From positions 35,637,501-35,701,500 of the forward strand of contig OX485805.1 of the NCBI GenBank assembly GCA_950295325.1: 64,000 nucleotides of DNA. Direction: 5' to 3'. Origin of the DNA: Polytrichum commune (taxonomy: Eukaryota; Streptophyta; Polytrichopsida; Polytrichales; Polytrichaceae). Below, piece by piece: positions 18,836 to 56,900 of this stretch. Position 1 is the first letter of the stretch. The number at the start of each line of letters is the position of its first letter. The position numbers and the translations under genes were made by a program. The notes under the pieces were generated by a model. It made no database searches, was not told the DNA's origin, and was given only the letters and a program-made list of their open reading frames with translations.

Positions 18836-19028
18836 TTACATCAGATCCGAATCACTGTGATCACCTGATGATGAAGACATTCTAGAATCACTAATATCTG
18901 CATCAGAGGAGGCTTGACCATCAGATTCTAAAGCTTCTATATCCAAAAACTCTAAAACTCTTCCCGGACGATATTTAGATGTAAAAGTCTGATAAGAACC
19001 TCCAGCTAGTTGATTAGCAATATCATTT
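18836..19028 (-). pseudogene. Severed 3' part of the copy B last exon
   Basis: Reading leftwards, codons for NDIANQLAGGSYQTF...VLEFLDIEALESD run to a TAA/TAG-type end at 18836. The same tail pattern, LP(T/S)Y...A...FLD(I/L)E followed by acidic/serine residues, ends copy A (15,400-15,565) and copy C (60,365-60,592). Its upstream half is 17 kb away, at 36,027-36,126. Joining the two sides across one copy of ATTT/AAAT keeps the frame. It is cut off from its promoter and should be untranslated unless the element excises. Confidence 0.85.
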
Positions 19029-19056
19029 AACACTATATTCGTTATTTGGAGACTTT
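19029..19056 (+). repeat. Left terminal inverted repeat of the 17-kb transposon
   Basis: 28 bp identical to the complement of 35999-36026. ATTT precedes it. Inside it, TTTTGAGACT follows after a short spacer, as at the other end. Confidence 0.95.
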
Positions 19057-19362
19057 TTGTTAATTTTGAGACTATTTAAGGACGTGGCTTTCACATTTAT
19101 AGGAATGAAAACACTACAAATATGCTATGTTCCCAATATGGAAACAAATATGAAACTCAAATGCATGTAATTACACATATAAAAATAGGGAAATGGGACA
19201 ATTACAACATTTGCATATAGGAAATCGATATCATATTCATTGAAGAGGGTCAAAATACAAAATGCAAGTGGAATATCCACTATTAGGCCAAAGCCCTAGA
19301 AACACAAATCCACATCTATATGTATTTTAATATAGCCTATACATTTGGACCATGAATAGGCG

Positions 19363-21047
19363 TCACTCTTTTGTTTTTGAAATACTATTATTAGCCTTTG
19401 CGGCCGTTTCTTTTTCTTTTGCTTTCATGGCGTCCATGGCTCTAAATATCTCGGCTCCGCGACTGTAACCTTGTGTATTCCCATTCCCAGCCCTCGAATA
19501 TATGCCATTTTCCCATATTGGCCGACCCCCTACCGAATAAGTGGAATACGAACGCGTTTGGGAAGCCGAATGTCTTGCACTCTTTCGTAGGGCCAAACAA
19601 CGATCAGACTCGCAAGTCGCAGTCTTCAGTGTTCGCCTATCCAATGACGGAGTGGAGGATGCACGTCCCACATCCATGTATATTGGGGTCTGAAACAATG
19701 ACCAAAAATATATATAACGACGTGGGTTAGTATAAGTTACGGATGTAAGTCCGAAAAACCCAAGAATTTGAAATGCACTAAATTAATACGCGGACATCAT
19801 GAACGAAAAATTTGAGAATGCCAATAGTGGGGCACCTTGGCCTTCGGGGCGGCGGTTTGATCTTCAGGGACATCGAGGGGAGTAGACACAAGCACAACCG
19901 GGACGTTCGTAAAGGCCGGGACATCAATGTGGGGTTCATCCATGCAAAGACGCCTGGTCGACCGCGGGTTTCGAACGTGCTTCTCATTGTGGAGGGGAGA
20001 TGGGGATGGGGGTAGAGCGTAATTGAGCTTTGCAACCTTTGGAGGAGGGCTATCGACAACTCCGTCTTCGAACCCCGAGTCTTTGGAGTAATCCACGGCA
20101 GAGGCGGCATCGACGGCCGAAAATTGAAATAGTGAAGGCATTGAAACGTCGGTCACACCAATGGAAGGGGAGCTGGGGCCCGGCTGAGATGTAGACATGC
20201 CATGTCTGAGACTTTGGGATGCTTGGTGAGGCAACTAAGGCACAAAAATACATTTACAAAATAAGGAGAGAAATGTTAGATATAAACATGGAGAGTCCAA
20301 GTACGGAGCCAAAAAATATCAAAGTTCTCATACCAATTTATTGAGTTCAGCAAAGCCGTACAACCTCCTAAATTTTGTATCTCTTGGGCCTAGAGGTCTA
20401 TTGCCAATACGATTTGAGAGGACAAAATCCGGGACACTTCCGGAGTGATGGGCAAGCCTTCTAATGTAGGGTCCTAATTCTAACTCTAGGAAGTTGTCGT
20501 TTCTATCGCCCTCCCAAGGGTTCGGGAAAATGCAGTTGCCCGGGGGGTTGAGAACGCTCTTCGCCGGGCTGTCGTCAATGAGGAGCGTGTTCTCCGGAGT
20601 GGGCCAATAACCTTGGGGGACCCCCTCCAACATCGGGACGCCCACCCAGAGGTTCTTCCTCAGCACCTTAAGGAATTGAGGTCCGGGGCCTCCTCCGACC
20701 TTGGGTACAATCTTGCCGCTACGGTCATAAAGGTCATCGCAGTGTTCTTGACCGAGAAGCAAGCACGGCATTGCGAGTTCTCGGAAAAGGAAACTGACGA
20801 CGGCCTTCGTGTTGTCCATCAGCATGGAGCTCCAGATGATGACATGGGCCAAGCCGAGGACCTCACGAAGGAAGCACCTCAAGCCGGGCCGGACGCGCAC
20901 AACCTTCTTGTTAATTAGTGTATCGAAGCGCCCGCCGTAATCCATGTCTTGTGGAGTACGGTAGGGACCCTTGGACGCACTATTGGAGATATGTGTGGAT
21001 TGACAAAGCACGCCATTGAGGTCAAATATTATGAAGTTTTTCCTCAT
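19363..21047 (-). CDS. FCP1/SCP-like HAD phosphatase-domain protein of the transposon
   Basis: I chose the ATG at 21047. A GTG-led extension to 21107 ends at a plausible splice acceptor (CATCACAG), so an upstream exon is possible. Exon 1 (21047-20335) encodes the domain: FIIFDLNGVLC near residues 6-16 is HAD motif I, VIIWSSM motif II, and LLIDDSPAK motif IV. FCP1/SCP enzymes dephosphorylate the RNA polymerase II tail using DxDx(T/V). Here the second Asp is Asn (D-L-N), so catalysis is doubtful. Exon 2 (20234 to about 19800) is proline/serine-rich. Exon 3 (19689-19363) ends in a Lys/Ala-rich tail. The exon 2 donor is uncertain because the phase does not fit a clear GT. It lies about 380 bp downstream of the methyltransferase-like gene, on the same strand. 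An alternative is a captured host gene fragment. Confidence 0.65.
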
Positions 21048-21425
21048 GGGCTGGCTTGGTCTTTCGGCGGGGTTGCGACATATCTCCGACGGACCCTGTG
21101 ATGGCACACACTACCTAGGTGAATGGCACTACCCAGGAAAACCAAATGACAAGCAAGCAAAAACGCAACAAAGAAATGCGAGGCAACAAGTATCCGAAGA
21201 ACTATCCAGTTCAAAAAATTGTATTAATGTGTTTGGTGATATACATTTCGCGAATAATTTACATTGTCACTAAAGGTCTCTCCTAAGATTAATTGAGTCT
21301 ACACTAGCAAAATTGGATCCGCCGCCGCGGGCGAAGTCGAGATTCGAACTCGAAAATATGCACACGCCACGAAAGTTGGCTGACTGGGAACTTACGGACG
21401 CGCGTCCGTAAAGAGGGAGGCATGC
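21048..21425 (-). other. Gap between the two minus-strand transposon genes
   Basis: It holds one palindrome (21392-21411, TTACGGACGCGCGTCCGTAA) just after the methyltransferase-like stop. On the - strand a CGAGTTCGAATCTCG hairpin near 21,330-21,346 looks like a tRNA T-arm/B-box without the rest of a tRNA. Confidence 0.5.
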
Positions 21426-24400
21426 TCAAAGGTTGATTACCTCTTCAGCGGTGAGTTCCTCGCCGGCAGTGCCTCCCTCACCAGGCCCAGTTGCGGGGCC
21501 AGGTTCCGGACGCGCGTCCGTAAATTCGCCCTGCGTGTCTTCCACCACCAACAAATCGGCTCCACCTGCTTGCGACGCTTGCGTGCCGACGAAAGGTTGA
21601 TCCTCATGCGAGGAGTCTTGGCCCCCCCGCATATGTACATCTTCATCGGCGAGGGGGGCGTCGCCCATGTTGACATCTTCATCGTCTCCTATGGCGGGAG
21701 GGGAGGAGTCTGGAGCGGCAGCAACCTGGGGAGGGGGCGGGACAACCAACGCGGGGGCCGTATAGGTGTGCTCCGGTATGTACACCGTGTGGCTGCTAGA
21801 AGGAGGGCGCACCAGAACGGGGGGCACGGACATGGCGGGCTCGGGAGCTGCATACACCACCTGGGGTCTTGCCTGCAAGCTTGCCATCATGCTCATGAAT
21901 TGTTGGCTTTGAGCCAAGAATTGTTGATTTTGAGCCATGAGGTCGGCATGCCTCCGAGCAGACTCCAACCTAGCTTGCTCCATCTCAGCTTGGATGGCGG
22001 CCATCTTCCTGGCGTGCTCTTCGTTGGCCTCCCGGAGCCGCATGTCAAGCTCTTCCTTCATCCTTTTCTCCATCTTCTCGTCCAGCTCGGAGACGGACAT
22101 GGGCTCTCTCTTCACCTTGCCTGGCTCAGAAGGCAAGGCGGAGATGGAAGCGTACAGCCTCACCTCATCCTCGTCTTCATCTGAGAGTTCCAAGACGGCG
22201 CCTTCGGGGTATTCGTTGTAAGGCGTCTTGTTTCTCTGCCGCCGGCTTGCACGGTAGGAGTCGATATCGGGCCTCGATATCAACTCTAGCATATCTCTAC
22301 CTTCCATGGGCGGGAGCGCCGCCTACTCACTGGGCTCTCCCCCACCAGAGGACGCCGTGCATCCGGTTTCTGCAGCAAGGTCCGCATCCCTCTCCGCCAT
22401 AAGCCTTGCAGCACGAGATGGGCCCGCAGTGGAAGGAAGCCCAACTCGAGAAGTGGGAGTCCCAAAGGGTGATAGACTAGGCGTATTATGAGGCACCCGA
22501 ATTGGAGTGACGTAGGGCTGCGCCTCCTCTGCATCCATGTCGTCTTCACCCAGGAGATACGCCACGCGATCCACTGGATGACGAGCAAGACCGGGCAAGT
22601 CTTCCTGCCTGGAGGGCTGTCCCCTTGGAGACATTGGATCATCGTCTCCATCGCTGCCCCACCCGCCTGCATGAGAAGGCTCCTCTCTAGAGGCAAGAGG
22701 AACAACAGGATGTGGGGTAATGATATCCAAGAAGTCATTGAGATCCATTTTCTCTGCAAGCTTCCTGTGATCTTTGCACTCATCCATGTCGCCAGCCCCC
22801 ACAAATGAGTTAACCTGCAACCCAAGCATCTGCACCAAATAAAAAAAGTTAGTGGATTGTTGGTATCAAGATTGAATTGACGGGGAAGATGGACATACAA
22901 ACATGATGCAGTGTGCATTTTACGGACGTGCGTCCGTAAAATGCACACTGGGTTAGGTTTGATAACTTTACGGCCGCGCGGCCGTAAAGTTGAAATGAAC
23001 TAGGTGGTTACACTTTACGGTCGCGCGGCCGTAAAGTTGCATCAGGTGGAGGCATGAAAGTTTTTTTAAGTACTTACCAATGCCGCATAAACAAATTTGG
23101 TCCCCCCGAAGACGTTGTACACTGTCTCACTCATCACAGTCACAGCCTTCAATACTCCTATGTAAAAGTCCATTCGGAGCTCGGTTGCCGGGCAGATTGC
23201 GAACATCGCCTCGTCCATTAGCTCCTTGGGGTGTGGAGGCGGCAACTGGTAAATTTTCTTGAACACGCTCTTCGCCTTTACAGGCAAACGCCCACTTGGC
23301 AAAGACTTCCGTGTCAAGAAATAGAGACATATAACGCCGACTTGCTTTACCCCCCTTGCTTCTTCGATGGCGGCGATGCCTTCCGTCTTCGCGGGGACGT
23401 ATGTGCTGTGGAAGATATTGTATTCGAGATCCATCGTCGAGTTGTATAGGTCGACGACCGCTGCGGATCTCTCTTGGTCCACAATCCACAGCCACACGTT
23501 TGGCTCCAGAAGTGCAGGGGACCGAAAGCTCTTGAAAGCTTTCAGGAAGCTGTCGTAGAAAGGGGTCCCCGGAGGAGGTTGTTTCCAAGAATTTGGAAAT
23601 GCACGGAAATCAAAGATAGCAAAAGGACAACCCCGGGGGTCATCTCTCACAGTGGCCCGCGAAGCATGGGTGTCCCACTTGCCGAACTTCAATTGTGATG
23701 TCACGGCGCAAAACCTTGCGACACCCTCGAATTTGGCATTCTTCTTTCTATCGAGGAAGTGTTTATACAAAGTTGTCTCCCTTTCGTCGATAGAACCTTT
23801 CTTCTCGTTCTTCCTTGAGCGCTGGGCCAAGAACGGAGATGCTGCTCTCATCAATGCCTTCATTGAGACGCCATTGATGTGGTATGCTATTTTCAATCCC
23901 CTCCAGTTGTCCCACACAATGTCACCATCTGCATCTGTAAGGTTGTAGGCGGGTACCAATTTGCCTATCTCCCTCATAGCCAACGTCTTCTTCTTCCTGT
24001 ATTCGCACCATTCCTTAATATGGTACGTTGAAGGCTTCATAAACCTTGGTCGTTTGAGGAAGATTTTTGGATACGGCGCTGTCCTTCTCGGAGTCTCCTT
24101 AAGAAGGTGTTCTGCCGCCTTGTAAAGCTCGGCATCGAGCAACCCTTGGAGGGGACGGAAGAACTCTCTGAGGATTGGAGGCACCTTAATCTTCAAGTCC
24201 TCTTTGTACTTCTTCTCCGTCTCAAGGTTGATGAGTTCTCCGTTGCTGTGTGCATGGAAGACGCGCATCCAGATAGCCCAGGTCCTACCCGACGAAGTGA
24301 TGAGCTTCAGTTCGCCCTTCAGATCGTGCACTGTCTTCATGCCGCTTTGCTTCATGTCAATACTTGAGAACTTCGTCACAATCGCACTGCTGAATGCCTG

Positions 24401-25841
24401 CAAGTAGAGAAACAAATAAGTTGTTGAAATGAGATCAACAAATGGAATGAGAACAGTCTAGTTTACGGACGCGCGTCCGTAAACTTAGAGCACAGAAAGA
24501 ATGACGGAGAATTTACAGACGCGCGTCCGTAAATTCATTTGGGAATATTACCTGCCATTTGGGATTCTTGACGACTGCGTTGTCCCTCTCTTTTGGTGGA
24601 CAGCCGTGCTCCTCCCACAAGGTCCTACCAGCCACGATGTTGGCTGCCCATGACGCCTCAAACGCTTTGATTTTGTTTGTCTGGTTGAGGAAGGCTGATA
24701 TGGCGATTAGCTGATTGGAGTCCTCTGAATGCACGAGAAGTGCCTTCCAATATCGGATTGTGGGTTTCAGAGGGCTCTTCCAATTATCGTCTGCGAAGAG
24801 AGCTTTTGCCGCTTCCACGCTATGCTGGCCGTCCACGATGTAGAATTCCCCTTGCTTAATAATTGGCCAATGTTCTGGTGTGACCTCCACGATTGGATCC
24901 TTTGGGGTCACACATATGGTCTGCCGGTCAGCTTTCGGGTTGTTCATGATGTTGTTCATCTGCCACTAGACCCCGCTCTCTTCTTGCACCCGAGTATTCA
25001 TACTCTCGGTGCCCTGGTGGCATTTATAAACATCCACGTCAAATGTGAAATACCTGCCCATTGGCCAGCAGGCTTTCGTTTTTTCGTCGAACTCTTGTTG
25101 AATTTTTGTTGATAGATCAGAGTTCGGGCGTTCTCCTTTCTTCAGAAGTGGTGCGACAGTAAGGGTGGAGCTGACATCTGGACCTTCGGTAAGTCCAGAT
25201 GACTCCATCTGTGAATGGGAGCGTTTACTGGATGGTCTGCTCCCTCTCGATGCTCCACTTTGAGACGGTCTTGATCCTTCCGGGACTGTCTGTGGAACAC
25301 GCGGTTGTCGTTCAGAAACGACTTTCTTCTTCCTTTTCCCCTTTCTGGACTCCAGGACTGCCCCATTCACTCTCGTGACATTGTTGAGGAGTCTTCCAAG
25401 CCGCTTACCCGTCCAAGGTGCATTGCATGCATAGTCTTGGAATTCAGTTGCCAGATTGAAGCAACCCGCATCCGGGCTGCCATTTTCGCATTCAGCCTTG
25501 TGGAATGGATGTCTGTGCTCATGAAGAAGAATTGTGACTCTGTCATCTTGTTTTTCAAGATCTATGACGACATAGTCACCTTGGGCCACTGCACACTCTA
25601 CTGACCAATTTTTAACTCTAACCCATTTATCTACGTCTATATCTTTGGTATTCATTTGATACCCAAATCTGAGTACGAATGTGTCATTCTCAAGTTTCTC
25701 TACGTAAACTGTCCAGTTGTCTACTGTGTCTTCGACTGGCTTGTAGTGATCGTTGTGGCTTATATCTTTGATGGCGGGTGGGAGTGGAGGCGGAAGAAAC
25801 TCAAATGCCTGGTCAATTGCAGGTCTTTTTGTAGATGCCAT
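21426..25841 (-). CDS. ParB-like/DNA methyltransferase-like protein of the transposon (family 2)
   Basis: Four exons: 25841-24552, 24397-23078, 22829-22331 and 22285-21426, all GT/AG with matching phases; the last intron is only 45 bp. The start is ATG at 25841. Product about 1,320 codons. Residues 1-290 are a basic, serine-rich region. FYIVDGQHSVEAAK near 336-350 resembles the DGQHR/ParB-sulfiredoxin box. Exon 2 holds FAIFDFRAFPN, perhaps a degenerate motif IV. Near its end ETVYNVFGGTKFVYAAL continues across the splice into MLGLQV, matching methyltransferase motif I (FxGxx, then an AA helix). The C-terminus has a Glu/Arg/Met/Gln-rich coiled coil (about 930-1030) and a proline-rich acidic tail. 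Same motif order as copies A-C but little direct similarity. Codon 292 (24966-24968) is an in-frame TAG. Palindromes sit upstream, in introns 1 and 2, and in exon 4. Function inferred: site-specific DNA-binding or methylation factor; the catalytic motif looks altered. Confidence 0.7.
21506..21524. repeat. Palindrome copy inside coding exon 4 of the family 2 gene
   Basis: GGACGCGCGTCC lies at 21508-21519 with a TAAA arm on one side only. On the - strand it encodes FTDARP within the acidic tail. The other half of the dyad has decayed to CCGG. Confidence 0.8.
22907..23035. promoter_or_regulatory. Three palindromes in intron 2 of the family 2 gene
   Basis: One dyad is centred near 22928 (ACGGACGTGCGTCCGT) and is extended by CAGTGTGCATTT and AAATGCACACTG into a 40-bp-class inverted repeat. 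One at 22970-22985 reads ACGGCCGCGCGGCCGT, with paired changes on both arms. One is at 23017-23032 (ACGGTCGCGCGGCCGT). Candidate protein-binding sites; function inferred. Confidence 0.75.
24465..24530. promoter_or_regulatory. Two palindromes in intron 1 of the family 2 gene
   Basis: Cores are at 24465-24480 (perfect) and 24515-24530 (one G-to-A change). Each is flanked by TTT/AAA arms. The intron is only 154 bp, so the dyads make up much of it. Confidence 0.8.
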
Positions 25842-25887
25842 CTGCAAATGCAAAAAACAATGCTTAGCATCATGATCAATGTCAAGT

Positions 25888-26515
25888 TTACGGACGCACG
25901 TCCGTAAACTTTCCACAGGTTGTTTTGAATTATAGTGTCAGAATGAACTATCCGAAATGATTTTGCATATGTCAATACGAAATTTCACATGTAGTTTACG
26001 GACGCGCGTCCGTAAACTATCAACGGGTAGTTGGGGATGAGAATCTCAACTATGAACAAAGATAAGATTTAATAAGAAAGTTCTAGTTTACGAACGCACG
26101 TCCGTAAACTAGTAGTTGGGTTTACGGGGTTAGCACTAATTTACGGACGTGCGTCCGGAAACTAGGAATGGTGTTTACTTGGATGTCACTAGTTTACGGA
26201 CGCGCGTCCGTAAACTAGGAATGGGGTTTACTCGGATGTCACTAGTTTACGGACGCGCGTCCGTAAACTAGGAATGGGGTTTCCTCGGATGTCACTAGTT
26301 TACGGACGCGCGTCCGTAAACTAGGAGTGGGGTTTACTTGGATGTCAATAGTTTACGGACGCGCGTCCGTAAACTAGGAAAATATACTGTCCATTAGTAA
26401 TAATATTGTTTTTTAAATATATCCAGAACTTACGGACGCGCGTCCGTAAGTTCTGGATATATGTTGCATGCTTCACCCACCTGGTGCGTCAAAGTTTACG
26501 GACGCGCGTCCGTAA
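25888..26515. promoter_or_regulatory. Cluster of ten palindromes upstream of the family 2 gene
   Basis: Cores start at 25890, 25998, 26100, 26143, 26196, 26249, 26302, 26355, 26432 and 26498. The four from 26196 to 26355 are spaced exactly 53 bp apart, within a short tandem repeat (ACTAGTTTAC...GGATGTC). The copy at 26432 is extended to a 46-bp perfect palindrome (26417-26462). The cluster starts about 50 bp upstream of the ATG at 25841, so it occupies the promoter/5' leader. CpG-rich cores are possible targets of cytosine methylation. Confidence 0.8.
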
Positions 26516-27640
26516 ACTTCAAGCCCTACATTGGTTAATCTGGTCCTTGTTGAGAGGGTTCCGGAATTTCAGGAGGGTGGTTTTGTATTTCCCAAGGATC
26601 TGCAGAATGCAATTGCATTGATCTACATAATGCAATTGCAGTGTTCTAGAAATCTTTCATGATGCATATGATGCAAAATACAAACAAACCAGCAAAGAAC
26701 AAAAAAAAACGAAGCAATCAAACAATCCAGCAATCAAACAATCAAACCAGCAAGTAAAAAAGCAAGAAATAAACTAAAACACAATCAAACAAGCAATCTA
26801 TGTACTTATGCAAGAGGCCAGCAAGTAAACAAGCAACCACGCCAGCAAGCAAAGCAAAGCAAAGCAGCAAGCACAAGCAAATCAAACAACTGTAAGCAAG
26901 CAAGCACACAAGCAAAAGAGAGAAAAAGCAATCACAAGCAAGCACATAAACAAAAGATTAAAAAACAATCACAAGTAAGCACAAGCAAGCACAACCAGCT
27001 AGCAAGCACAAACAATGACACAAGCAGCAGGCAATCAAACAATTAAACAAGCAAGTAAAAGCAAGAAATTAACTAAAACACAATCAAACAAGCAACCTAT
27101 GTCATTATGCAAGAGGCAAGCAATCAAACAAGCAACCAAGCCAGCACAACAAAGCACAACCAAGCACAACCAGCAAGCACAAGCAATGCAAAGCAAAGAA
27201 AAGCAAAGCAAAGCAAAGCAAATCAGCAAAGCAAAGCAAAGTAAAGCACAAGCAAAGCAAAGCAAAGCAAAAGCAAAGCAAAGCAAAGCAAACCAGCAAA
27301 CACAAGAACAAACACAAACACAAACAACAAACAACCTTGTGAGGTGACCAGGAGCGCCAACAACAAGAGGAGCAACGCCACCAGCAAGAGGAGCGCGGAG
27401 AGGAGAGGAGCGCGGAGAGCAAGAGGAGCGCCAACAGCAAGAGGAGAGCAAGAGGAGAGCAAGAGGAACGCCAACAGCAAGAAGAGAGGACCGCGGAGAG
27501 AATCGCCAACAACAAGAGGAACGCGGGGAGGAGAGGGTTTAGGGTGACAACAACAAACCCTAGAGAAGCAAGAGAGGAGCGTGAGAAGAATGTGAGGAAG
27601 GAGAGCGAGAGAGGGGAGGCGGAGAAATGAGAGGGTGAAA
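26516..27640. repeat. Low-complexity AAGCA-rich and GA-rich tract
   Basis: From about 26,650 to 27,340 the DNA is built of (A)AAGC/CAAGC words. From 27,340 to 27,640 it is GAGGAGC/AGAGGA-rich. Long open frames here are compositional and not genes. It lies in the spacer between the two divergent transposon genes and could act as a long leader; a G-box-like CCACGTGG follows at about 27735. Confidence 0.75.
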
Positions 27641-27786
27641 ATGGGCCAATGAAACCCTAAAACCCTTAAGTACTCAAGAGGAGCCCCCCAAACGCCCCGA
27701 CTCCCAACGTCCCATCCACCCCGCACCCCATCGCCACGTGGCAGAACCCTATAGGTTCATATTGGAGAGGTATGTGGCACACCTCT

Positions 27787-29462
27787 CCCTCTTTAGTAAG
27801 ACACGTTTGGAAATCACAAAAAATGTCGTATTATCGACATGTTGTCTTCTCGTTAATATGACAAACGCTGTAAAATTGTCGTACTATTGAGCGAATAAAA
27901 AAACAAAAGAAATATGAGCTTCAAAACACACACAACGGATGTAAGCAATTATTATATATATTGTATGAAATAATAACGTATAACTTCAAACAAATACAAG
28001 CGTTCTCAATAATTATTGAAATAAGAGTTCAGTGATCTGAGTCTAGTGTTGCCTACCTAAGTGAAACAAGTTGTCTAATAAAAAATTAGACAACAATGAT
28101 GCATAACGTTGACGCTTTAATATTGTACATGAAAAAACATCATCCAAATGAACCAAATGCAAATTAACATTAAAATCAAAGCCTTCTGCATTATTGATTC
28201 CCAAAACGGCATCCACCAACTCAACAACCATTATACACACTTCTTGCTCAATATCATATGCATATAAGTATTAGTTGACATGTCACCATCATCCAGTCGC
28301 AACATCCAATTACACTAAATATCACTAACCCTATGAAAGTAAGGTACTTTTAACTGTGAACTCAAACACTAAATTTCAACTATTAATGGTAATAAGTGGA
28401 AGTGACATATAATGTGTACCATTAATTATATGATTAAAATTTAACAATGACAAAAGGAGAAGGGACATGGTAGTAACATAGCATGTAAGATACAAATTGT
28501 AAAAACATAGCACCAGTGACAATTGGGTTCTACACCTTGTACTCGAATATAGTCTTTGTTTAAAATAATCTCTTGAAACCCTTATTTTCATTAAATAGTG
28601 GCAGGCTCTTGGTCTGAAACCTAAATATCACCCTTATTTCATTTTTTCCATGTCGACATAAATATTTATATATTTCACATTTTCATTCGTAGGTTTATTT
28701 GGGAATTGTTGTTCTGCCAACCGACTATGGTGCTAATCCAACTCACACCATATTACTTCATAACTCCACATGATAGATTGTTTGATATTAGTCCTTCAAT
28801 GTAGCATCATATTTATGACAAAGCCCAACTAACATAAGGTGAAGATACATGACCTAGAGTCATATTAGTCACCTTTCATTTATTAATACCCTGACCAAAC
28901 CCATTCTACAATACAAATCCTAATGTTTATTAAGTTCACAATGATAAGCCTAGGGAAGTTTTCGGTATTGAAACTATAGGACAATATGAGGTTGAGTAAC
29001 TCAAGTGTAACATTTTTTTGTGGAGTTGTTGCAATATGAAGATAAGTGGACTTTAAATGACTAGTACACTAACTATCGCTTATTATTACGAATTATGATA
29101 TGCTACAACTATTTATTGTATGATAGTATATCATTGTCCACAATTAAATTTCATCAATAAAATAAATTAAAAGATTAAGTATTTTGTAAATACAAACATC
29201 GTCATATGCCACTCTTTGGACTCCTCTATCAAGAATTTTTGAAAATATTTGTATTTGTTTGGAGTTATTAGCTCTTATTTCATATCATCTATATTGCCTA
29301 TTAAACTTGTTGTATATATATCTTTGCGCTCATTTTTATTATGATAATTTCGTATTCCCTCAATAATATGACAACTTTACGCCACTTGTCATATGAATGA
29401 GAAGACGACACCTAGATAACATGACCTTTTTGTGTTTCTCACACTTGTCATACTAAAGAGGG
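27787..29462. mobile_element. Non-autonomous TIR element (about 1.68 kb) nested in the transposon
   Basis: The left end begins CCCTCTTTAGTA and the right end is its complement. Similarity of the inverted ends extends for about 115 bp with scattered mismatches (for example GTCTTCTC and ATATGACAA in both). The interior is AT-rich and non-coding. I could not see a convincing target duplication. It may be a MITE-like insertion, or an old inverted repeat of the host element. Confidence 0.65.
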
Positions 29463-31500
29463 TGAACAATAATGACATTCATGTTCGGTTTGGATGAATT
29501 TGCATGTTAATCTCTTTAATTCTTGGAGGACATAACTCTCGTCCGTCACTTGAGGTCATCCTAAGCCAGTATCAATAACATAACCTCGAAGTGCGAGGCT
29601 TGGAAGAAATTTCACCATATTTTGAGAAGAACGACATAATACTATGGGTTGAGGGTTTAGGGTTTAAGGGGTTTAGCATGAATGCAAGTCTAGAACCTAG
29701 GGTGAGCATTCAACTACCCTACTTCTTGTAATCATGAGGCCAAATTGCTTGCCTCTCATTTGAGAGTTTTAATGATAAAATGAGGTAGTGGGGGATGTCA
29801 ATCCAACTACACTTTTTGGAATCTTGTGTCAAGAGTTCTTGAAAATGTTTGTATTTGTTTGGAGTTATAAGCTCTTATTTCATACCATCTAATAGGGTTG
29901 AAGTCATATGCCTATGATATTATCTTGCACAACATTACGAATTAATTCAATCCCTTTGAACATAGGTCTAGTAAGCTTGTATTAAAAGTGCACGCAAGGG
30001 TATGTATTGAATTTACATCCCTCTTGTACATTAAACAACCATCGGGATTCATTGAATCCTTCCACGAGCTTGTATATCACCTACATCAAGTAGTAGCAAA
30101 CTGTTTTTTATTCTAGAATTTTGTTTCCATGGTGACATGGATTGATGTGTTAAGTACTCCATTAAAGAATACCAATTAATATATATGATCTTCAAAACCT
30201 TTCATCAAAAGTATATGTTAAGAGCAAATGGCTAAAGCCAGCTTGGAACATAAATATTATAATGATCTTCAATGTTTCGAAGCCTTAATTGTTTTCATAT
30301 TTGTATCCCTTCATTTCATTTTAAATTTGGGGTCACATCAAAGGATAACAAGTCCCGGCTAAATCTTTTACTTGCATGTAAGGGGTACATTTCACCCAAA
30401 AAAAGTAAGATTTAAAAAAATGAAAGTTAGGGTTACACAACCCAAGTTTTATGGCTCTCATTAAAGGATACCAAATGAAGATTTTGTACATGGCAATTAT
30501 AATTGTTATTGACAGTTTCATGAATATTTGTTCAATGTCATATACTTTTTCACCACTTACACCATCTTGCAAAATAATTGGTGTTATTCAATAACTAAGA
30601 ATGCTTGCAACCAAACCCTAAACCCTAAACCCACCAAACCCTAAACCCTACCTAGGTCCATAGCTGTTCTACTTTCATGGCCTCACGGAAATCAAAGTTT
30701 CTGTATGTATTAATAATATTATGTGTAGGTGGGGAAATTAAAAGGGTTGGATGGTAGGGTGGTGGCCGATTGTATTACAATATTAAATGCAAGATGAGAG
30801 GAGAGAACATGATATTCTAATATCATAAGATTGTATGCAAAACAATTAAATAGTTGCTAGATTATTTCCGAAGCACATATATTTTTATAGTCCATGGACT
30901 ACAAATGTTGTTGTGGTGGTTGATTTTTTATACGATTCTATAATTTTTTGTCCACAAATTCTACAATGAACTCTTAATATTGGGTACTCCAATAATATAA
31001 ACCCCCCCTCAACAATGTTTATTGCTCATATAATATTAACCAACTTGCTTTGTTGTACACCATAAATATATAGATGCCTTTTGCTTTGTCATTATGTGGA
31101 GTCATGGTCAAATGCATGTTGGCCGCCATGAATACACATTCCATTCCAAGGCTGGCATTCTCCATGTTGGAATATTAGGTTTTTGTTTTTAGGAAAGAGT
31201 TGGCGGCTAGTATCCTATGCTGAAGAAAGGATCCAAGGGAAGACGATGAGTACTTAAGGGAAATCCCCCCACCAAGGGATTCTTTTTGCATCTCAGATGT
31301 GGGTTGCGCTCTTGAGACCCTTGTAGTGTGGTGGATACTTGTTTCGCGCAGGTATAGATCCTATTGCAATGAACCTACTATACCCTAAAACCCATATTCG
31401 ATTTGCACTATCTGGATCTCTGAATGCGATGGATTCTATTTCTGACAGGTATTGTTCACGCTGCAAGGGTCCTATTATGACGCCGCAAATTACGGAACTT
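29463..31500. other. AT-rich spacer of the transposon, no gene seen
   Basis: A stretch of about 80 bp at 29813-29895 repeats 29215-29295 (TTGTATTTGTTTGGAGTTAT and neighbours). A telomere-like patch is listed separately. Short ORFs such as 30333-30572 have no features. Near 31,185-31,330 the sequence becomes less AT-rich and may belong to an untranslated first exon of the transposase gene. Confidence 0.5.
30611..30652. repeat. Short interstitial telomere-like repeat
   Basis: Two runs of CCCTAAA units (about five in all) are separated by CCACC. This is the plant telomere sequence but far too short to be a telomere. Similar single units occur at 29650-29670. Confidence 0.7.
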
Positions 31501-31501
31501 T

Positions 31502-32233
31502 ACGGACGCGCGTCCGTAAACATTACATCTCTTGACTTATTTGCTTATTGAATATCTCATATCTTATTGAATCTCTCAGTGGCTCGTTGCATCATTGAGT
31601 ATCTCAATCTATTTTCATTGGCTCATTGAGCATTTACAAGTAGGTTTACGGACGCGCGTCCGTAAACATGCATCCTTTTGGTGTCACATGGTGGTATGTC
31701 ATCTACAATTTGGGCTGTGAATTATTATCTATTTTGATAGTATGCATATTTGTTCTGATGAATATTTACGGACGTGCGTCCGTAAATCTTGAACCTTTTG
31801 CATCTGTTCTAGTAATGAGGTAAAGGTAGGTTTTCGGACGCGCGTCCGTAAACATACAAACCTCTTGCATATGTTCTAGTAATGAGGTATAGGTAGGTTT
31901 ACGGACGCGCGTCCGTAAACATACAAACCTCTTGCATCTGTTTAGTAATGAGGTAAAGGTATGTTTACGGACGCGCGTCCGTAAACAGACAAACCGTTGG
32001 TACACATTCAAATACATTACTGGTAAGGCCAGGAGGTAAAATTTAGTGTAAATGTAAATGGGGCTGGGACTTCTTGGTTCCTTGCAACCCTATTTGTTTT
32101 GGACACAATTGTCATTTGACATAGGGATATTTACGGATGGGCGTCCGTAAACATACATTGTCTAATTTGCCAAGACGTTTGCGCCTAACCCTGACATCTC
32201 TTATCAGATAATGATTTGCGGACGGGCGTCCGT
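31502..32233. promoter_or_regulatory. Cluster of eight palindromes upstream of the transposase
   Basis: Cores start at 31502, 31648, 31768, 31834, 31901, 31967, 32133 and 32218. The four from 31768 to 31967 are 66-67 bp apart within a short tandem repeat (CCTCTTGCAT...AATGAGGTA). The last two have a GG-type centre and are less perfect. The cluster ends about 57 bp before the transposase ATG, a layout that mirrors the cluster before the divergent gene. Confidence 0.8.
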
Positions 32234-32289
32234 AAACATACACTGCTTATATTTTATCTCATTCTTCATTTGGCTCTCTTGTAGTGGCC

Positions 32290-35200
32290 ATGGATTCCGA
32301 CGTCGGTGATAGTGCGTCCGATTTCTCCTCGGAACCGTCAAGCTATGCTAGCGAGTTTGAAGATGTCGTGGAACAGGAAGCTACAAATGGTGTGGCCGAT
32401 GCAGATGATGAAATCATACCACCATGTGAGGGTTATTCGCGGGAGCAGTGGGTTGATCTTGATGTTGTACTACTCAATGCATGTGCCGTTCCCGTGGCCA
32501 ACGGTGTTTGTAGGAACTCGAATCCAACGGATTGTATTGATGCAAAACCCCTCGGGGAGGACGATGTTGGGGTGTGCATATTGAACTCCTTACTTCCATC
32601 GGAAGTGCCTCCTGGTTGGAGGTTCTCTCTCCGTCGATGGCCTTTGCGAAGTGTTCATCACGATGGTGTGAGCTTGTGGGATCAATCCCGCCGATTTGAG
32701 CAACTGCAACAGTCTTTGTTCGCCACAATGCATCCCAGACAAGGTCGTCGTAAATATGATTCCATTCGTGTGCCTCGTGAACCCACGCAGCGTCGTCGAG
32801 ATCATACATTGGGAGACACATCTATTAGGTCCGTAGCCACAAAGGATTGTTGTGCGAAGAAGTGCTGCCAACTATTTCCCCGTGACAAAATCAAATCTTT
32901 GAGGCAAGAGATGTGGCTTGCCGACTTTCGTATGCGGTCTGCCAAGAAACTTGAAGTACATCGCAACATGCACTTGGATGCCGGAGGTTGTAAGGTTGTG
33001 ACCTTGGAAAATATAGAAGTTTGTTGCCGGGCATGGTACATTATTTATGCCGTTTCAAAGGCAGATTTTTATAGGTTCCGGAACTACTCGCTGCAAGGAA
33101 GGCGCTCTCGGTTTCATGGCAACTCAGGTACAAAGAAGCCCAGGGAGGCAACACTCCAAGCGGCTGCAACTCTGTCAACCATCATTATGCCATTAGCGGA
33201 TGCGATGCCACACAAGACACGCACTTTGCCGTCGGGGGAAAAGGTTGTTCAGATGGTTTTACCCACAGGGACAAAATGGAAGAACATACTCGTGGATGTT
33301 AATGAAGTTGGTGAAAATGTTGGATGTGGGCCGATTTCGTTGTCAAAATTGAGTGTGATCAAGAATCAACAGTTCGCTGAATACATTACGAAGAGCCCGG
33401 GGATAAGTTTGCTAGGTATTCTACTTGTGAAAAATATAAAGGCCTTCGAGACGCACATCCAATAGGGACCGAGTCGCACACCAGACATCAACAGAGATAC
33501 ATTGAGCATGTCAACAACCAGGAGGCACACCGTCAAGACTACTACAAGAATCGCGCCTTATCGATAATGAGGCCGAACGAGGTGTTGACAATCATTCATG
33601 ACAAAATGGACCATGCGAAGACCGCTTGCCCTTGTTATGCGCGGAAAATAAAGGCCATAGATGGATATTTCAAGCTGCCAATATCTGTCACAGGTTCGTT
33701 GGTTTTCATTTTTTTGGCGTGCCCACATACTCATTTTTAAGAGTTACGGATGCGCATCCGTAACTCGTCTGTGCATGGTTGTTCCTTACTTGCGGCAATA
33801 TCATATTTCCTTCATATATATGATATTGGAATGTACTTCTCATTTGTATGTCTTAATTCAGGTATGATTGCACATGGCCATGTGGACGTCAAGTATGCAC
33901 ATTATGGCTTGGATTTCTATCCAGGCGACGCCAATCATACCGTAGGGTCTTTTGCAAAACTTCTACGAGATCTTGAGAGTCCGCCAACATCATCCTCGCG
34001 TGCTCTTTTTGTTGGATGTGGAACAACTCCGATTTATGAGGCTGTGCTAGAGGGGAAGGAAGTTTGTCTATCTTCACTTCAAGAACCGCCTGAACAACCC
34101 GTTCTTGCTAAACCTTTGCCTCGAACTCTACACGTGCAACTTGACAATTGTGCCAAAGATAACAAATGTCGATACGTGTTTTGTTTCTGGTCATTGCTGG
34201 TAGCCAAGGGCATTTTCAAAGAAGTGTTTGTGTCTTTTTTGATGGTTGGCCATACGCACGATGACATCGACGCTTCATTTGGACGTTGGAGTATGAAGTT
34301 GCACGAGGAGGATTTTCCGACAATTCCTCTTCTCATGAAATCATATATGGATTTGGACAATGTGCCAGTCATTCCACATTTGATTGAAGAAGTGCCCGAT
34401 TTCAAACGGTTTATAAAACCATTCATTCTTAAGGGGTCTGACCGACTAGTGGGCCACACCAAGGCTCAACAATTCCGATTTTATATGCGTGACGATGGTC
34501 TGCCCGCCATGCAATTCAAAGTTTTGTGCACTTCCCCGAATTGGGGTCCGGAGGAAGGGATACTCATTTGGCGCAAAAACGAAGATGGCAAATGTGTGCT
34601 ACCTGATGGTGAGCCGAAGCCTTGCACACCCAGCCCCATGAGGAATGGGCCAGAAATCATCAAAGGTATATCCGGATTCATTGAATATTGGAAAGAATTG
34701 TGCGAGGAAGACATCACAAGACGTGTTAGGGATACCCACGAACCATTGATTGCGTATTGGGATCGCATTCGCACGGCATTGATAGCACCCGATGTTGATA
34801 CACATTCATGTTTGACACAAGGGTTTTGGCCACAAAGTCGAGTGACAGTCGTGGAATCTGAGGCCATGTTGTTCAACAATGGGGACGTTCGTGAAAAGTT
34901 CGCTGCGGACGATCATTATGTTGGCCCTGCTCGCAATCGACCGGAGCCGTCGTTTCGTGTTGGGGTTGATTGCCACGAAGGTTATTTGCTGCTCGTACGT
35001 GCTGGGGATGAGGAGCATCCCAAGCCAATTTGGTTGGTGAAAGCATTGTCATCACCAAACTTTGTTCCAACTAGTCCAAATTTTCGCCAAATTGAGGTGG
35101 AATATTGCCGTCCAAGCACCAAAGATCAAAATGTGCTCCGGACATATTTAGAGTGGGACACCAAAAAAGGTTTCAAATGGACAATGGACTCATCATACGA

Positions 35201-35390
35201 ACCGGTTTGGATAAACACAGATACCATACTTTGTGCTTGGAAACCACGCAAAGGTTCGAAATCAGAGACAATGACCATCCCGCAAAAACATATAGATTTT
35301 GCCAAAGACAACTTGGCACGTATCGCAGCTGCGGAAAACGATCTTGAAAATGGAAATGAAGTTGAAGATGAAGATGAAGAGGGGGAATGA
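32290..35390 (+). CDS. DUF7869-type RNase-H-like transposase of the 17-kb element (frameshifted)
   Basis: The ATG at 32290 follows a TTGTAG that could be a splice acceptor, so a leader exon is possible. Exon 1 runs 32290 to about 33692; a GT...AG intron (33693-33861) holds a palindrome; exon 2 runs 33862-35390. The N-terminus is acidic. A CCAKKCCQ zinc-binding-like box lies near residue 195, followed by a helical DNA-binding-like region. STCEKYKGLRDAHP starts the next block. The catalytic-type blocks are VQLDNCAKDNK and MVGHTHDDIDASFGRWS, the signature of the DUF7869 family, and the end is acidic. A one-base loss in a G-run at 33401-33404 shifts frame and stops translation at 33463-33465. The family is widespread in plants, fungi and oomycetes and generally taken as transposase-derived. 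Expected role: excision and integration at the TIRs (inferred). Confidence 0.75.
33741..33766. repeat. Variant palindrome in the transposase intron
   Basis: The core ACGGATGCGCATCCGT differs from the consensus at two positions, one per arm, which keeps the symmetry. The arms GAGTT/AACTC extend it to 26 bp without mismatch. Degenerate relatives with the same GGATGCGCATCC core occur at 35737-35748. Confidence 0.85.
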
Positions 35391-35998
35391 TATTGACGTA
35401 CGTCGGGACCAAAGTTAGTTGAAATGTGTATTTGTTTGTCATTAATATATGACATTGGGGTTGAATATTATATTAGACACATTTTATAGATTACAACTAG
35501 TATAATATTATTGCATGACTGTATTGATTTACGGATGTGGAATCACCCTTCCCATGCGCTATCAAATGTTTTCTAGTATATGTTTATATTTACGGATGTG
35601 GAATCCAAACTATTTAATATTGCATATTATGTTAATTTGTAAATTCTAATTAACATTGTCAATTTATTTTAAGTATTGTTGCAATTGGGATGTGCCATTC
35701 AATTCAACCACAATAGGCCAAGAGCTTTATGTTTCGGATGCGCATCCAAGAGTCAATACATATAAAATTAGATGGCTATTTATGGATTCATTACTTTTGT
35801 TCAACACAATCCCAAAAAAACCAAATAATCGTGTAATTGTGTCATTTGATTCTCATCCCCATACTTACTATATTTAGTAATATATAGTTCAATCGCATAT
35901 GGATTTCTAAAACATTATGATGTAATTGTTCCCGATGTTCCCTACGTTCACAATATTCGCATCCGAAACTATGGGTCCAATTTATTTTGAGACTTTCC
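35391..35998. other. 3' flank of the transposase and right subterminal region
   Basis: AT-rich. It carries half-sites of the palindrome (ACGGATGTGGAAT at about 35530 and 35591), one diverged dyad at 35734-35749, and CGCATCCGAAAC at about 35959. The subterminal half-sites could be bound by the element's own protein (inferred). Confidence 0.55.
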
Positions 35999-36026
35999 AA
36001 AGTCTCCAAATAACGAATATAGTGTT
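35999..36026 (-). repeat. Right terminal inverted repeat of the 17-kb transposon
   Basis: 28 bp, the exact inverted partner of 19029-19056, followed by ATTT (36027-36030), the target duplication. GAGACTTT and AAAGTCTC around 35991-36006 also form a small hairpin at this end. Confidence 0.95.
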
Positions 36027-39000
36027 ATTTGCATATGTAGGAAGTTGCCAAGACTTTGGAGGGCTGGGATAGAATTTAGAGTCACAAAAAAAAGGCCGGT
36101 GAATAGGATAGCCCAATTTATCGCATCTGCAAATGCCAATGGTACCATGTTCATAACTCAACTTTATAAGAAATGACAGTAAAAAACATAACACACGTAA
36201 GAAAATTTGTGGACCTTACTCACTTAGTAAACCGAGATCTTTTCACAATCCTCTCTACGGGGATATCTTCACCCTCAAGATCCTCTAAACTGGTGACACG
36301 GTCTTCAAGAGTGACTTCAAAGGCTGCTCTAGAGATAATCAATGGAGCAAGTAAGGCCTCAAAAATATCAACGTCAGCCTCTAATGCCGCAATGTGACGG
36401 TGCACATTGCGGCATGCATGAATGGAAGATTCTGCAAATAAAGAAGTTGGAAAAAACTTAGTACAAAAACACCTATGAATTTTGTAGACCAAAACAATAT
36501 TAACGATTAACCAACTGAAATGGAAGATTACAAAGACATACCGGTCGCTGCCGTGCAATCTAGAATAATATCCCATGGGGAGCTACATGCTTCAATTAGC
36601 ATTTGCATTAGAAGCACGGATTTTTCACGAGGCCCTCGCCATGGTGTGGATCCATTAGTTAGCTGGTCCTTACGAGAGACCAAGTTCTGGAGAATATCAT
36701 CCCGTGCAACATCCACCCCATAAGGATCCAATGCAGGGACATGGCAAAATGAAAACTTCGATGGAGGTGACCCCGGCACGCTCCTGACCGCCAATGAAAT
36801 ACCGAACCTCATGGTCTACAATGTACGAGACATAAAGAACAACATTACTTTACAAAGTAAACAACACAACTGCGTGAGTATAATACTTAGGTGGGTCTAC
36901 ACTCAGAACTACCTCAAGGATTAAATTGAAACTGAATGCGGTGATCAGCAAGAAGACATAAGCTTTATCTTACAGTTGATGCTGGATTTATTGGGGATGT
37001 GAGATGAAGGCGGTTCATTCCCCACCACTCTTTCCGAATTGCAAAACCATACGATTTGCAATATCCAAGAATATTGGACTTCGTACTCATGCGAAAAGGG
37101 TGAAACAAAATAATTGCCCCGTCGTCGTGCAGATGTTCGTCGGCAAAGTCAAAGAGTGGTTGTAACCACTCTTTCAATTCTTGATTCCAAGCAGGAATGG
37201 ACGACGGTGGGTCTGATATGCCAGGAACAGGAAGACCTTCCGGTATATCTGCAAGAATCAAGTCCAAACAGGGATGGTCCTCCGGAGAACCCTTGTAGTG
37301 CCGGGTTTTGTCTTTTGAGTGCTGCACCCAGCTCAACCCCCAGCCACCCTTAGACTCAAATCAAATTCAGTCAAATATCAACTCCTAACCCCAAACCAGA
37401 TTCCCTCAACCCACAGTCAAGCTCACAGTCATATCAACCTCACTAACATATTAGACCCCAAAAAATGTGTATCGGGGCCGAGACACCTTATATGAGTCCT
37501 ACATTTGAATTTCAGATTTTTAGAAAAATCAAAACTTGACACTTCTACCCCCTACCAGATCCCCTCAACACTCACCCATCCTTAGACTCAAATCAAATTC
37601 AGTCACATATCAACTCATAACCCCTGAACCAGATTCCCTCAACCCATAGTCAAGCTCACAGTCTTATCAAAATCACTAACATATTAGAACCCAAAAAATG
37701 TGTGTCGGGGCCGAGACACCTTATATGAGTCCTACATTTTAATTTCAGATTCTTAGAAAAATCAAAACTTTATACATCTACCCCCTACCAGAATCCCCTC
37801 TTCCTTCACCCACCCTTGGACTCAAATCATAATCAGTCAAATATCAACTCCTAACCCCCAAACCAGATTCCCTCAACCCACAGTCAAGCTCAAAGTCTTA
37901 TCAAACTCACTAACATATTAGACCCTAAAAAATGTGTATCGGGGCCGAGACACCTTATATGAGTCCTACATTTCAATTTCAGATTTTTAGAAAAATCAAA
38001 ACTTGACACTACTACCCCCTATCAGATTTCCCTCAACCCCCAGCCACCCTTAGACTCAAATCAAATTCAGTCACATATCAATTCCTAACCCCTAACCAGA
38101 TTCCCTCAACCCACAGTTAAACCCAAATTCATATCAAAATCACTAACATATTAGACCCTAAACAGAGTGTGTCGGGGCCGAGTGACCTTTTATGAGTCCT
38201 ACATTTCAATTTCAGATTTTTAGAAAAATCAAAACTTGACACTTCTACCCCCTACCAGATTTCCCTCAACCCCCAGCCACCCTTAGAGTCAAATCAAATT
38301 CAGTCACATATCAACTCCTAACCCCCGAACTAGATTCCCTCAACCCACAGTCAAGCTCACAGTCATAGCAAACTAACTAACATATTAGACCCCAAAAAGA
38401 GTATATCGGGGCCGAGACACCTTTTATGAGTCCTACATTTCAATTTCAGATTTTTAGAAAAATCAAAACTTGACACTTCTACCCCCTACCAGATTTCCCT
38501 CAACCCCCAGCCACCCTTAGAGTCAAATCAAATTCAGTCACATATCAACTCCTAACCCCCGAACTAGATTCCCTCAACCCACAATCAAGCTCACAGTCAT
38601 AGCAAACTAACTAACATATTAGACCCCAAAAAGAGTATATCGGGGCCGAGACACCTTTTATGAGTCCTACATTTCAATTTCAGATTTTTAGAAAAATCAA
38701 AACTTGACACTTCTACCCCCTACCAGATTTCCCTCAACCCCCAGCCACCCTTAGAGTCAAATCAAATTCAGTCACATATCAACTCCCAACCCCCGAAGTA
38801 GATTCCCTCAACCCACAGTCAAGCTCACAGTCATAGCAAACTAACTAACATATTAGACCCCAAAAAGAGTGTGTCGGGGCCGGGACACCTTATATGAGTC
38901 CTACATTTCAATTTCAGATTTTTAGAAAAATCAAAACTTGACACTTCTACTACCTACCAGAATCCCCTCAACACTCACCCATCCTTAGACTCAAATCACA

Positions 39001-53922: not shown

Positions 53923-56900
53923 ATGGCCACCATCAGAGCACTGCACCATTCCATCCCCCTTATGATCCCTCTTGGAGATGATGGTCTAGCCAAAGTCGCA
54001 GAGTCATTCCTTAGTTTGAGGTTTAGATTCCACCCAGACTCAATTCATGTCGAGGAAGAGGTCTTTAATGACAACGGTGACTTGAGTCACACTGTCCTTC
54101 AGATGTCCTTTCGCATTGACGATGGTAGAGTTTGGTTCTTGCTCCCTGCAAAGTACAAGGCCATAGGCGTCACCGAGTCGGAGATGGCCACCACTACTGT
54201 GTTGCTAACACCAGGCGTGTCCCTCACGTCCACCACGCAGGCTCCTTTTCTGGCGACGGTCAAGAAGGAGCCCGACATCCAAAGAGGTTACCTATCTCAG
54301 CGATGACTCTGATGATGATGTGCCACCTGCCTCTGACTTTGCCTCACTTACCCCACCTCCATCGCAGGATCAGCCCTTCATCAATCCTCCCAGGATTCCA
54401 CACTCGCCTACCGTAAGTCAACCATCTACTTCCAGACCCCCAGTTCACCCAGGTGTGTCTATAGATCGTCCCAGTGTTGTCCACCACTTGAAGTTGCTTG
54501 CAACCCGACCAGGGTCCAAGAACATCCTCAAGAGTATTGATTATGAATCTGTTAGGCATGAGAAGGTTGAGTTCCTCCCTTCTGTTTTTGACGGCGACGT
54601 CATCTTTGAGTTCCCTCCTCTCGGAGCTGATGCTCCCCATTCCCATGCTAGACTCATGTTCGGAATGGACAAGCGTTTCGATGGTCATGCTTGGTGTAGG
54701 ACAAAGACGTCTAACATTACCAATGATCTCGGCTTGACCTTCCGGTTTTCATGTTGTGTTGGCCATCTACGTTGTAATAACGAGGGCTGTGATTACCTCA
54801 ACCGCCCCAATCGGGCCACTACCGTCAACGAGACCGAATGGGAAGGCTGTACCGCCTCACCCTTCTCCGCAGGAGCTGATCCCCCAGCTGGGTCATCTCT
54901 CGTTTGTAAGGTCTGTAAGACACCACCCTACTGTCTTGATACTTGCCAAGCTAAGATGTACTATGTTCTTGGCAAAGGTGACATGACCCGTGCATGCATC
55001 CATATGGGTCATCACCATCACCCCGTTTCGCAAGGTGTCTGTAGAGAGTCTAAGGTCGAAATTCATGATCTCATTGGTAGAGAGGTTGAGAGGACTCCCA
55101 CCGCCACCAACTCTGCCATTGCATTGGCTGCAAGTAAAGAGTTCCTGGCCAAGTATCTTCTACGCACAGGATCTGATCCCAATAAAATTATGGACCTGGA
55201 GTCCATGAAGTTTGTCATGGACAGGTACGAACACCTCAGCACCCCGAGTATTCGAAACACTGTCACTTCCTTCAAGCGCATTGGGCGAGGGGGGATCATT
55301 GACAGCATCACCGGACTCAGAGGTCATAGCAGTTGGCCCTATGTGCAAGAAAACAAATTCCCAGGCCAAGGAAAGCTGTTGGAGAAAGTCTATGTGTTCA
55401 AGATGTCCGAGGTGGGCCCTGGCTCGGGAGTTGACCTTGTCAGGAGAATGCAACCACACGGTGATTTGCAGGATGCTTGGGTCATGTTTGACCATGTCAA
55501 GCGTGTCAAGGGGTGGACAACAATGGCTTGCCATGTCTATGACTCGGCCTACTGCCGGGTTATGACTATTGCAGTATGTGATATGCAGTCTGAGGACGTC
55601 ACGGCGCAGAGCCTTCTTTGGCATGGGCTCAATGAAGTTATGCACAGACATGGCATTGCTAAAGTTAACTTCAAAGGGTTCATGGCGGACAGTGCACAAG
55701 CCTATTGGAATGCAGTTAGGATTATCTATGGCAGTGGTGATCCCAAGGTTCCTATGGAGTCTCGCGAGAGGACATGTCTATTGCATTGGACGGTGTCTAT
55801 GGAACGCCACACCACCACCCACATCAAGCCCGACCTCCAACAACAACACAAATTGTTATGCAAGCAGTACAAGGATGCCAAGACTCCCGAGCAGTCCGAG
55901 TCCCGTTATCTTGCCATCCGGGCATGGTGGCTTTCCTCTGGAGCTGCATCCGAGGAAGGAATCAAGGACCTTGATACATGGCTTGCATTCTGGCACTTTC
56001 GTTACCGTCAATGGGGTGGTTTCATGCAACTAGTGAGTACCCACCCACTTTCTATTTCGCTTTTTGGTGTCAAATTTTTTTTGGGTTTTTTTTTGGGTTT
56101 TTTGGGTTTTTTTTTTTTTTTTTGGTGCCAGTTTAGGCTTTTGGCTTGTTTTTGTGCAAAGCGTACTCACTACATTTTATTGACTTCTCTCAGAATTTCA
56201 CAGATTCTGAGTTGGCAGAGATGCCATCTTGCAACCTCTCCGAGACAGTCCATAACAAATGCTTCAGCAGTCTGGAAACCGTGGCTCTGATCTGTATGTT
56301 GCGACCGTGGATGATTTCGTGAGGGCGTTCATGCAATGTACGAACTACTACGCCTACTTGAAGGGTGATCGCTCTGGTACTGGCCCAGGAAAAGAAGAAC
56401 TCCGCCTTCGTGCTGCACAACGATCCGGTGACGCCAAGAGAATTGTTGCAGCCCTCGAGCACATGCCTGGAGCAGAGCATTGGTGCACCCGCAAACCCCA
56501 ACTCGAAGGAGAGGAGGTCTTTGGCACCACCAAGCGCAAACTTGATATGCCCCCTGGTTCTGATCAAGATTCACATAGACCCGACAAGGTCAGCTTCTCT
56601 CATCCACGAGTGAGCACTAGGTCAACCAAGGCACGTACTGATTCCTCCACACCATCAGACCTGCCCCTAGCACAATCACCTGAGAAATCGATTCCACAAC
56701 GGGTCACCCACGTCAATAACATTCAGGAGACCCACTGCGATGTTTCCAAGTGGCACATTTCTAGACTGCCCAAGACTTCCGCCAAGGCCTGCTTTGCCAT
56801 GCAAGCTCGCACAAAGACCAAGTGCACCCAGAAGATCGTTCGGCATGGTAAAAGTACTCCAGCTCCTACGTACACCAGCTACATGCGCGACTACAAGAAG

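Follow-up and report, generated by a model that had tools for sequence, protein, structure and literature searches.

A multi-copy three-gene DNA transposon of the moss Polytrichum commune, probably of Sola type, whose arrangement suggests recognition of its own DNA

Introduction

Does the 17-kb stretch at positions 19029-36026 of the window (the whole 64,000 nucleotides analysed here, from Polytrichum commune contig OX485805.1) form a single mobile element, and what might the two genes beside its transposase do for it? An initial annotation, made from the sequence alone, proposed a DNA transposon of no described superfamily, combining a DUF7869 transposase (T), a ParB/methyltransferase-like protein (P) and an FCP1-like phosphatase (N). 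The interval is, with near certainty, a genuine three-gene cut-and-paste DNA transposon with many copies in the genome. The best explanation of the whole is a giant autonomous Sola-type transposon in which P provides self-recognition via palindromes and counters silencing, with support from N, and this complete account has about an even chance of being correct.

Results

The limits of the element are set by the following features:

19025..19028, no strand: left target-site duplication (TSD), ATTT
19029..19056, + strand: left terminal inverted repeat (TIR), 28 nt, AACACTATATTCGTTATTTGGAGACTTT
35999..36026, - strand: right TIR, 28 nt, same letters as the left TIR
36027..36030, no strand: right TSD, ATTT

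The 28-nt terminal stretches are identical at both ends, and the perfect TIRs and flanking ATTT described previously were confirmed from both sides. The genome measures 408 Mb, about 406 Mb of it in contigs C1-C7, which are probably seven chromosomes. A genome search with both element ends returned at least 28 left/right pairs from the ends listed (the best 40 of 679 left-end and the best 40 of 805 right-end candidates), all copy numbers being lower bounds. Twenty of these 28 pairs are spaced 16-19 kb apart; the other eight are longer, four of them exceeding 26 kb, presumably through nested insertions. The 4-bp TSD is perfect in 26 of the 27 copies with both ends read, comprising the window copy, 22 further copies of subfamily A and four of subfamily B, with the 75-kb pair C4:40631372 left out, and its sequence differs from copy to copy (ATTT in the window copy; ACAA, TATG, GTTG, TAGG and ACAC among others). 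The sole copy lacking a perfect duplication, C4:8945685, is a 22-kb interval. Among the 40 left ends listed, 25 have 99-100% identity over the full 301 nt and one more has 100% over 281 nt, whereas the remaining 14, at 89-90%, constitute the second subfamily, B. Given these near-identical left ends, the element has moved recently; that the terminal 250 nt hardly vary among copies is an effect of ascertainment, as the copies were picked by left-end identity.

Seven copies could be followed from end to end: the window copy, one B copy and five A copies, the latter being the spanning ones among ten A stretches of 18.5 kb (one without its last 5 nt). The exons of T, P and N were each matched between the TIRs in all seven, with small indels in N exon 3 and in the B tails. 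Furthermore, 25 of the 28 paired copies hold P exon 2 inside the TIRs and opposite to the transposase, among the matches listed (the best 88 of 1181 candidates). The co-occurrence of three multi-exon genes and palindromes between TIRs with 4-bp duplications, on which the initial annotation had staked its claim, therefore held, and the arrangement is not a chance nesting. Decay is evident in the window copy: its transposase exon 1 has lost 1 nt that the other copies retain, and two in-frame stops interrupt P prematurely. The B copy (L070), with open frames, has Asn at the position of the second catalytic Asp of its transposase; therefore no copy can be named as active.

Exon models of all three genes were refined by comparison with subfamily B, in which T is a 975-aa protein of two exons:

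32290..33693, + strand: T exon 1, with the 1-nt deletion near 33396 in the window copy
33862..35390, + strand: T exon 2, DUF7869 (PF25273), DDD catalytic core

T matches the DUF7869 profile at E=1.8e-39, and its named relatives are found in the mosses Ceratodon and Physcomitrium and, more distantly, in the liverwort Riccia. Its relatives conserve aspartates at D421/D424, D546 and D588 (numbering of relative P0011), the second being present in all 39 relatives with a letter there. The predicted structure of P0011 aligns with integrases and Mos1; a Foldseek search alone with this model gave no match at E<=0.001. On the strength of this model and the conserved aspartates, T appears to be a DDD transposase with an RNase H fold, in line with the transposase proposed initially. 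A literature search found DUF7869 named in no paper.

The superfamily is probably Sola, a placement made from features and published descriptions: the DDD transposase, a TSD of 4 bp, the length of the element and its moss host all agree. Sola elements are described, in the excerpt available, as having a DDD transposase, a 4-bp TSD, TIRs of 11 bp or more and, in some cases, a length above 15 kb (PMC10741241), and a table row 'Physcomitrella Sola1' places the superfamily in moss (PMC9033089, table excerpt). The present element has each of the first three features, with TIRs of 28 bp, and so the earlier statement that no described superfamily fits does not stand; to what these excerpts describe it adds the extra genes and the palindrome arrays. 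The presence of CACTA at TIR positions 3-7 raises the possibility of CACTA/EnSpm or another superfamily instead. However, CACTA elements have 3-bp TSDs and ends that begin at CACTA, while here the ends start AACACTA and the duplications are of 4 bp, and there is no PF02992 match. The excerpted account of EnSpm families likewise gives 3-bp TSDs (PMC12730594). A superfamily other than Sola is accordingly improbable. CACTA membership itself is ruled out by TSD length and the position of the ends.

The second gene, P, lies on the strand opposite to T:

24552..25841, - strand: P exon 1, 430 codons, ParB-like motif FYIVDGQHS; premature stop at 24966-24968 in the window copy
23078..24397, - strand: P exon 2, 440 codons, methyltransferase-like by eye only, without canonical catalytic motifs
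21426..22829, - strand: P exon 3, C-terminal part, low-complexity and coiled-coil look by eye; premature stop at 22323-22325 in the window copy

In subfamily B, P has 1346 aa in three exons. One search identified 10 relatives and another 22 exon-1 homologs; relative P0001 (863 aa, from a 2,686-nt contig) is continuous across the exon 1-2 junction, which suggests that it is a spliced transcript. DUF6551 is the best profile match in 10 of 14 family members (best E 0.012, below cut-off) and a PHROG ParB-like partition family matches at E 0.096, also below threshold, and P can thus be called ParB-like only weakly. The predicted fold, from an alignment of P0001 (two-exon, as lead), P0113, P0103, P0106 and P0100 from the 22 exon-1 homologs plus nine exon-2-only homologs, was unusable (pLDDT 42), and Foldseek with this low-confidence model found no match at E<=0.001. 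Phage records searched with P0001 gave one irrelevant match (E=5), and sequence searches of the PDB with P exon profiles gave nothing useful.

One alternative is that P works as a DNA methyltransferase, targeted by its ParB-like domain, and writes N6-adenine or N4-cytosine marks on the element that encodes it, an activity proposed for the algal proteins. The end of exon 2 has, by eye, the look of a permuted beta-class methyltransferase, with DFRxxP at the place of motif IV and GG(S/T)K, within a VYNVFGG(S/T)K..YAA block, at that of motif I; moreover, P agrees in domain order and position with the protein described, in the text excerpted from PMC12477816, for the brown-algal element Sola1-1_Ec32. 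Such an activity is nevertheless of low probability for two reasons: first, the canonical motifs [DNS]PP[YFW] and FxGxG occur in none of 10 family members, which instead have DFRxxP (10/10) and [F/A]GGxK (9/10). Second, there is no Pfam methyltransferase match at E<=10. The ParB part of the earlier label has weak support, and an active methyltransferase is not supported. P is still read as ParB-like plus methyltransferase-like because the published Ectocarpus Sola1 element has such a protein on the opposite strand.

The non-coding part contains palindromes:

25885..26522, no strand: palindrome array 1, upstream of P, regular part with 53-bp period
31497..32240, no strand: palindrome array 2, upstream of the transposase, regular part with 66-67-bp period
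24460..24536, no strand: two palindromes, first P intron
22918..23038, no strand: three palindromes (variants), second P intron
33741..33766, no strand: palindrome GAGTTACGGATGCGCATCCGTAACTC, transposase intron
21392..21411, no strand: palindrome between P and N

The palindrome core of about 22 bp is TTTACGGACGCGCGTCCGTAAA. The element contains 15 perfect palindromes with arms of at least 8 nt, where 20 mononucleotide shuffles averaged 0.35, and 25 members of a 40-nt palindrome repeat family, which bears out the clusters reported before the two divergent genes. Within the window, all 19 palindrome matches and all 36 half-sites fall inside the element; genome-wide there are 878 exact 22-mer sites against none for the reversed control, and the majority of the first 50 are clustered. 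The core is identical in subfamilies A and B, whereas the array periods differ (53 and 66-67 bp in A, 135 and 95 bp in B). Translated P introns of several relatives end in peptides that such palindromes would encode (LRPRGRK, FTNARS), which suggests that related species carry the same sites.

That P recognises these palindromes is rated slightly above an even chance. An alternative is that they are binding sites of the transposase, or replication or hairpin elements for transposition, rather than targets of P. Both the transposase gene and P do have an array immediately in front of them, half-sites lie towards both ends (19737, 35529, 35590, 35732 and 35960), and the dyad symmetry runs past the core with outer letters that differ between A and B and between arrays. 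However, the arrays are 6-7 kb from the left end and 4 kb from the right, palindromes are also intronic, whereas repeats that serve transposase assembly would be expected in subterminal positions, and the motif is absent from the TIRs. A role in transposition is therefore considered unlikely.

Two further observations concern the arrays. Many palindromes of 25885-26522 and 31497-32240 are symmetric for 3-5 nt (up to 10) beyond the 22-nt core, which would fit a preference for long perfect palindromes as such, and upstream of array 1 there is a long CAAGCAAAG-like simple-sequence stretch (window 26670-27340).

The third gene, N, has two or three exons:

20334..21047, - strand: N exon 1, NIF/FCP1-type HAD phosphatase domain (PF03031)
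19797..20234, - strand: N exon 2, splice sites by eye
19363..19689, - strand: possible N exon 3, junction with exon 2 not settled, splice sites by eye

The NIF domain is matched at E=1.8e-13, above cut-off, and TIGR02251 at E=7.4e-07, below its own; a PDB sequence search gave nothing useful. Phosphatases of the FCP1/SCP type are expected to carry the catalytic motif DxDx(T/V). At this site N reads DLNGV in both subfamilies, so that the domain part of the FCP1-like label holds and the catalytic motif does not. A phosphatase of the RNA polymerase II tail, as suggested initially, is a candidate reading of N. Of the checks proposed initially, profiles supported T and the domain of N, and the P0011 model supported T; for P the profile matches stayed below threshold.

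The ratio of nonsynonymous to synonymous substitution (dN/dS) was obtained by comparing an A copy with a B copy (T exon 1-2 from L013, the T exon 2/3 part from the window, and P and N from L023) and is below 1 for all three genes: 0.19, 0.07 and 0.13 for T; 0.09, 0.12 and 0.26 for P; and 0.17 for N exon 1, followed by 0.42 and 0.63 in the tails. At silent sites the two copies diverge by 0.27-0.34 in T and by 0.20-0.38 in N, against 1.63, 1.32 and 0.70 in successive parts of P. The excess in P, about fivefold over T and N, was noted for window 21426-25841 against L069/L070. Its simplest reading, with one pair of copies as its basis, is that a P cassette may have been exchanged between element lineages.

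These values also bear on whether P and N are captured host or foreign passenger genes without a role for the element. N does come from a widespread eukaryotic phosphatase family, its tails have dN/dS values of 0.42-0.63 and the silent divergence of P is unlike that of T and N. Nevertheless, P and N exon 1 are clearly constrained, P exons recur in the relatives found by both searches and P exon 2 is kept in most paired copies, which leaves the passenger explanation quite improbable.

Outside the element, two long adjoining + strand open reading frames (656 and 447 aa, 54320-57602) have no Pfam match at E<=0.001.

Discussion

The closest published relative by description is Sola1-1_Ec32 of Ectocarpus, a 21.5-kb element with an opposite-strand gene that has ParB-like and methyltransferase parts (PMC12477816, where the same excerpt refers to Iyer 2011 and Petroll 2025 on green and red algae). 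Both are giant elements, the moss one probably of Sola1 type too, with a ParB-like/methyltransferase-like gene opposite to the transposase. They differ, as far as descriptions can be compared, in that the Ectocarpus element is from a brown alga with a predicted methyltransferase, whereas the moss P is without canonical motifs; furthermore, the excerpted description mentions neither palindrome arrays nor a phosphatase, and the moss element has both. As read from sequence, the gene set is a land-plant version of the published algal arrangement with a degenerate enzyme part. Among open-licence PMC papers, none was found that describes this gene set from land plants. What is new is this land-plant version, a P family without canonical methyltransferase motifs, the NIF-type phosphatase gene and the approximately 25 palindromes per element.

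Given these parts, a mechanism of four steps is suggested. First, the DUF7869 DDD transposase would act on the 28-bp TIRs and its staggered cuts would give the 4-bp duplications; here the copies and duplications are observed, the fold is modelled and the chemistry is inferred from that fold. Second, P, in which a ParB-like domain precedes a degenerate methyltransferase-like region and a C-terminal tail, would recognise the palindrome, which is arrayed before its own gene and that of the transposase and also dispersed through introns. Third, P loaded on the arrays would mark copies as self and keep or restore their expression against host silencing, not by methylating DNA; this role for P is put forward tentatively, at somewhat below an even chance. 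Fourth, and weakest, N may help the element to be expressed, a phosphoprotein of the transcription machinery being one conceivable substrate. Weighing against such a role of P, the CpGs of the palindromes mutate as fast as CpGs elsewhere, protection having been tested and not found.

The model for the third step is provided by analogy with the VANC proteins of Arabidopsis VANDAL elements. VANDALs are Mutator-type transposons. According to the excerpt available, the binding site of VANC proteins is a short motif that has multiplied into tandem arrays within introns and upstream regions of the elements that encode them, and these arrays change quickly between relatives (PMC5735166). Common to both systems are an element-specific motif and dynamic non-coding arrays beside a non-transposase gene; by contrast, the VANC motif is of 9 nt and non-palindromic, P is without a Pfam relative and the moss system is known from sequence alone. 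Fungal KDZ and other transposons that carry TET/JBP genes (PMC12730594, as excerpted) are likewise large DNA transposons with a putative epigenetic gene, but that gene is a dioxygenase, the hosts are fungi and KDZ TSDs are of 7-8 bp.

Bacterial ParB/parS systems pair a ParB protein with an array of palindromes of parS size. The moss element similarly has a ParB-like motif protein and palindromes of parS-like size, but no partition role and a different palindrome. This likeness raises a far more speculative version, in which P would be a eukaryotic ParB-like clamp that spreads from parS-like arrays, its dead methyltransferase part reading or blocking methylation, to form a silencing-free domain within which N acts on the transcription machinery, P and array being exchanged as a unit; it is the most doubtful of the proposals made here.

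In summary, the arrangement suggests that this transposon can recognise its own DNA and might thereby withstand silencing by its host. Should P bind the palindromes, this would be a land-plant non-Mutator transposon with self-recognition parallel to that of VANC, through a prokaryote-like ParB module. If true, the algal ParB/methyltransferase accessory genes would extend to land plants with their enzyme motifs lost, and the question of how bryophyte transposons escape silencing could be put directly to the test using a single protein and a single 22-bp site.
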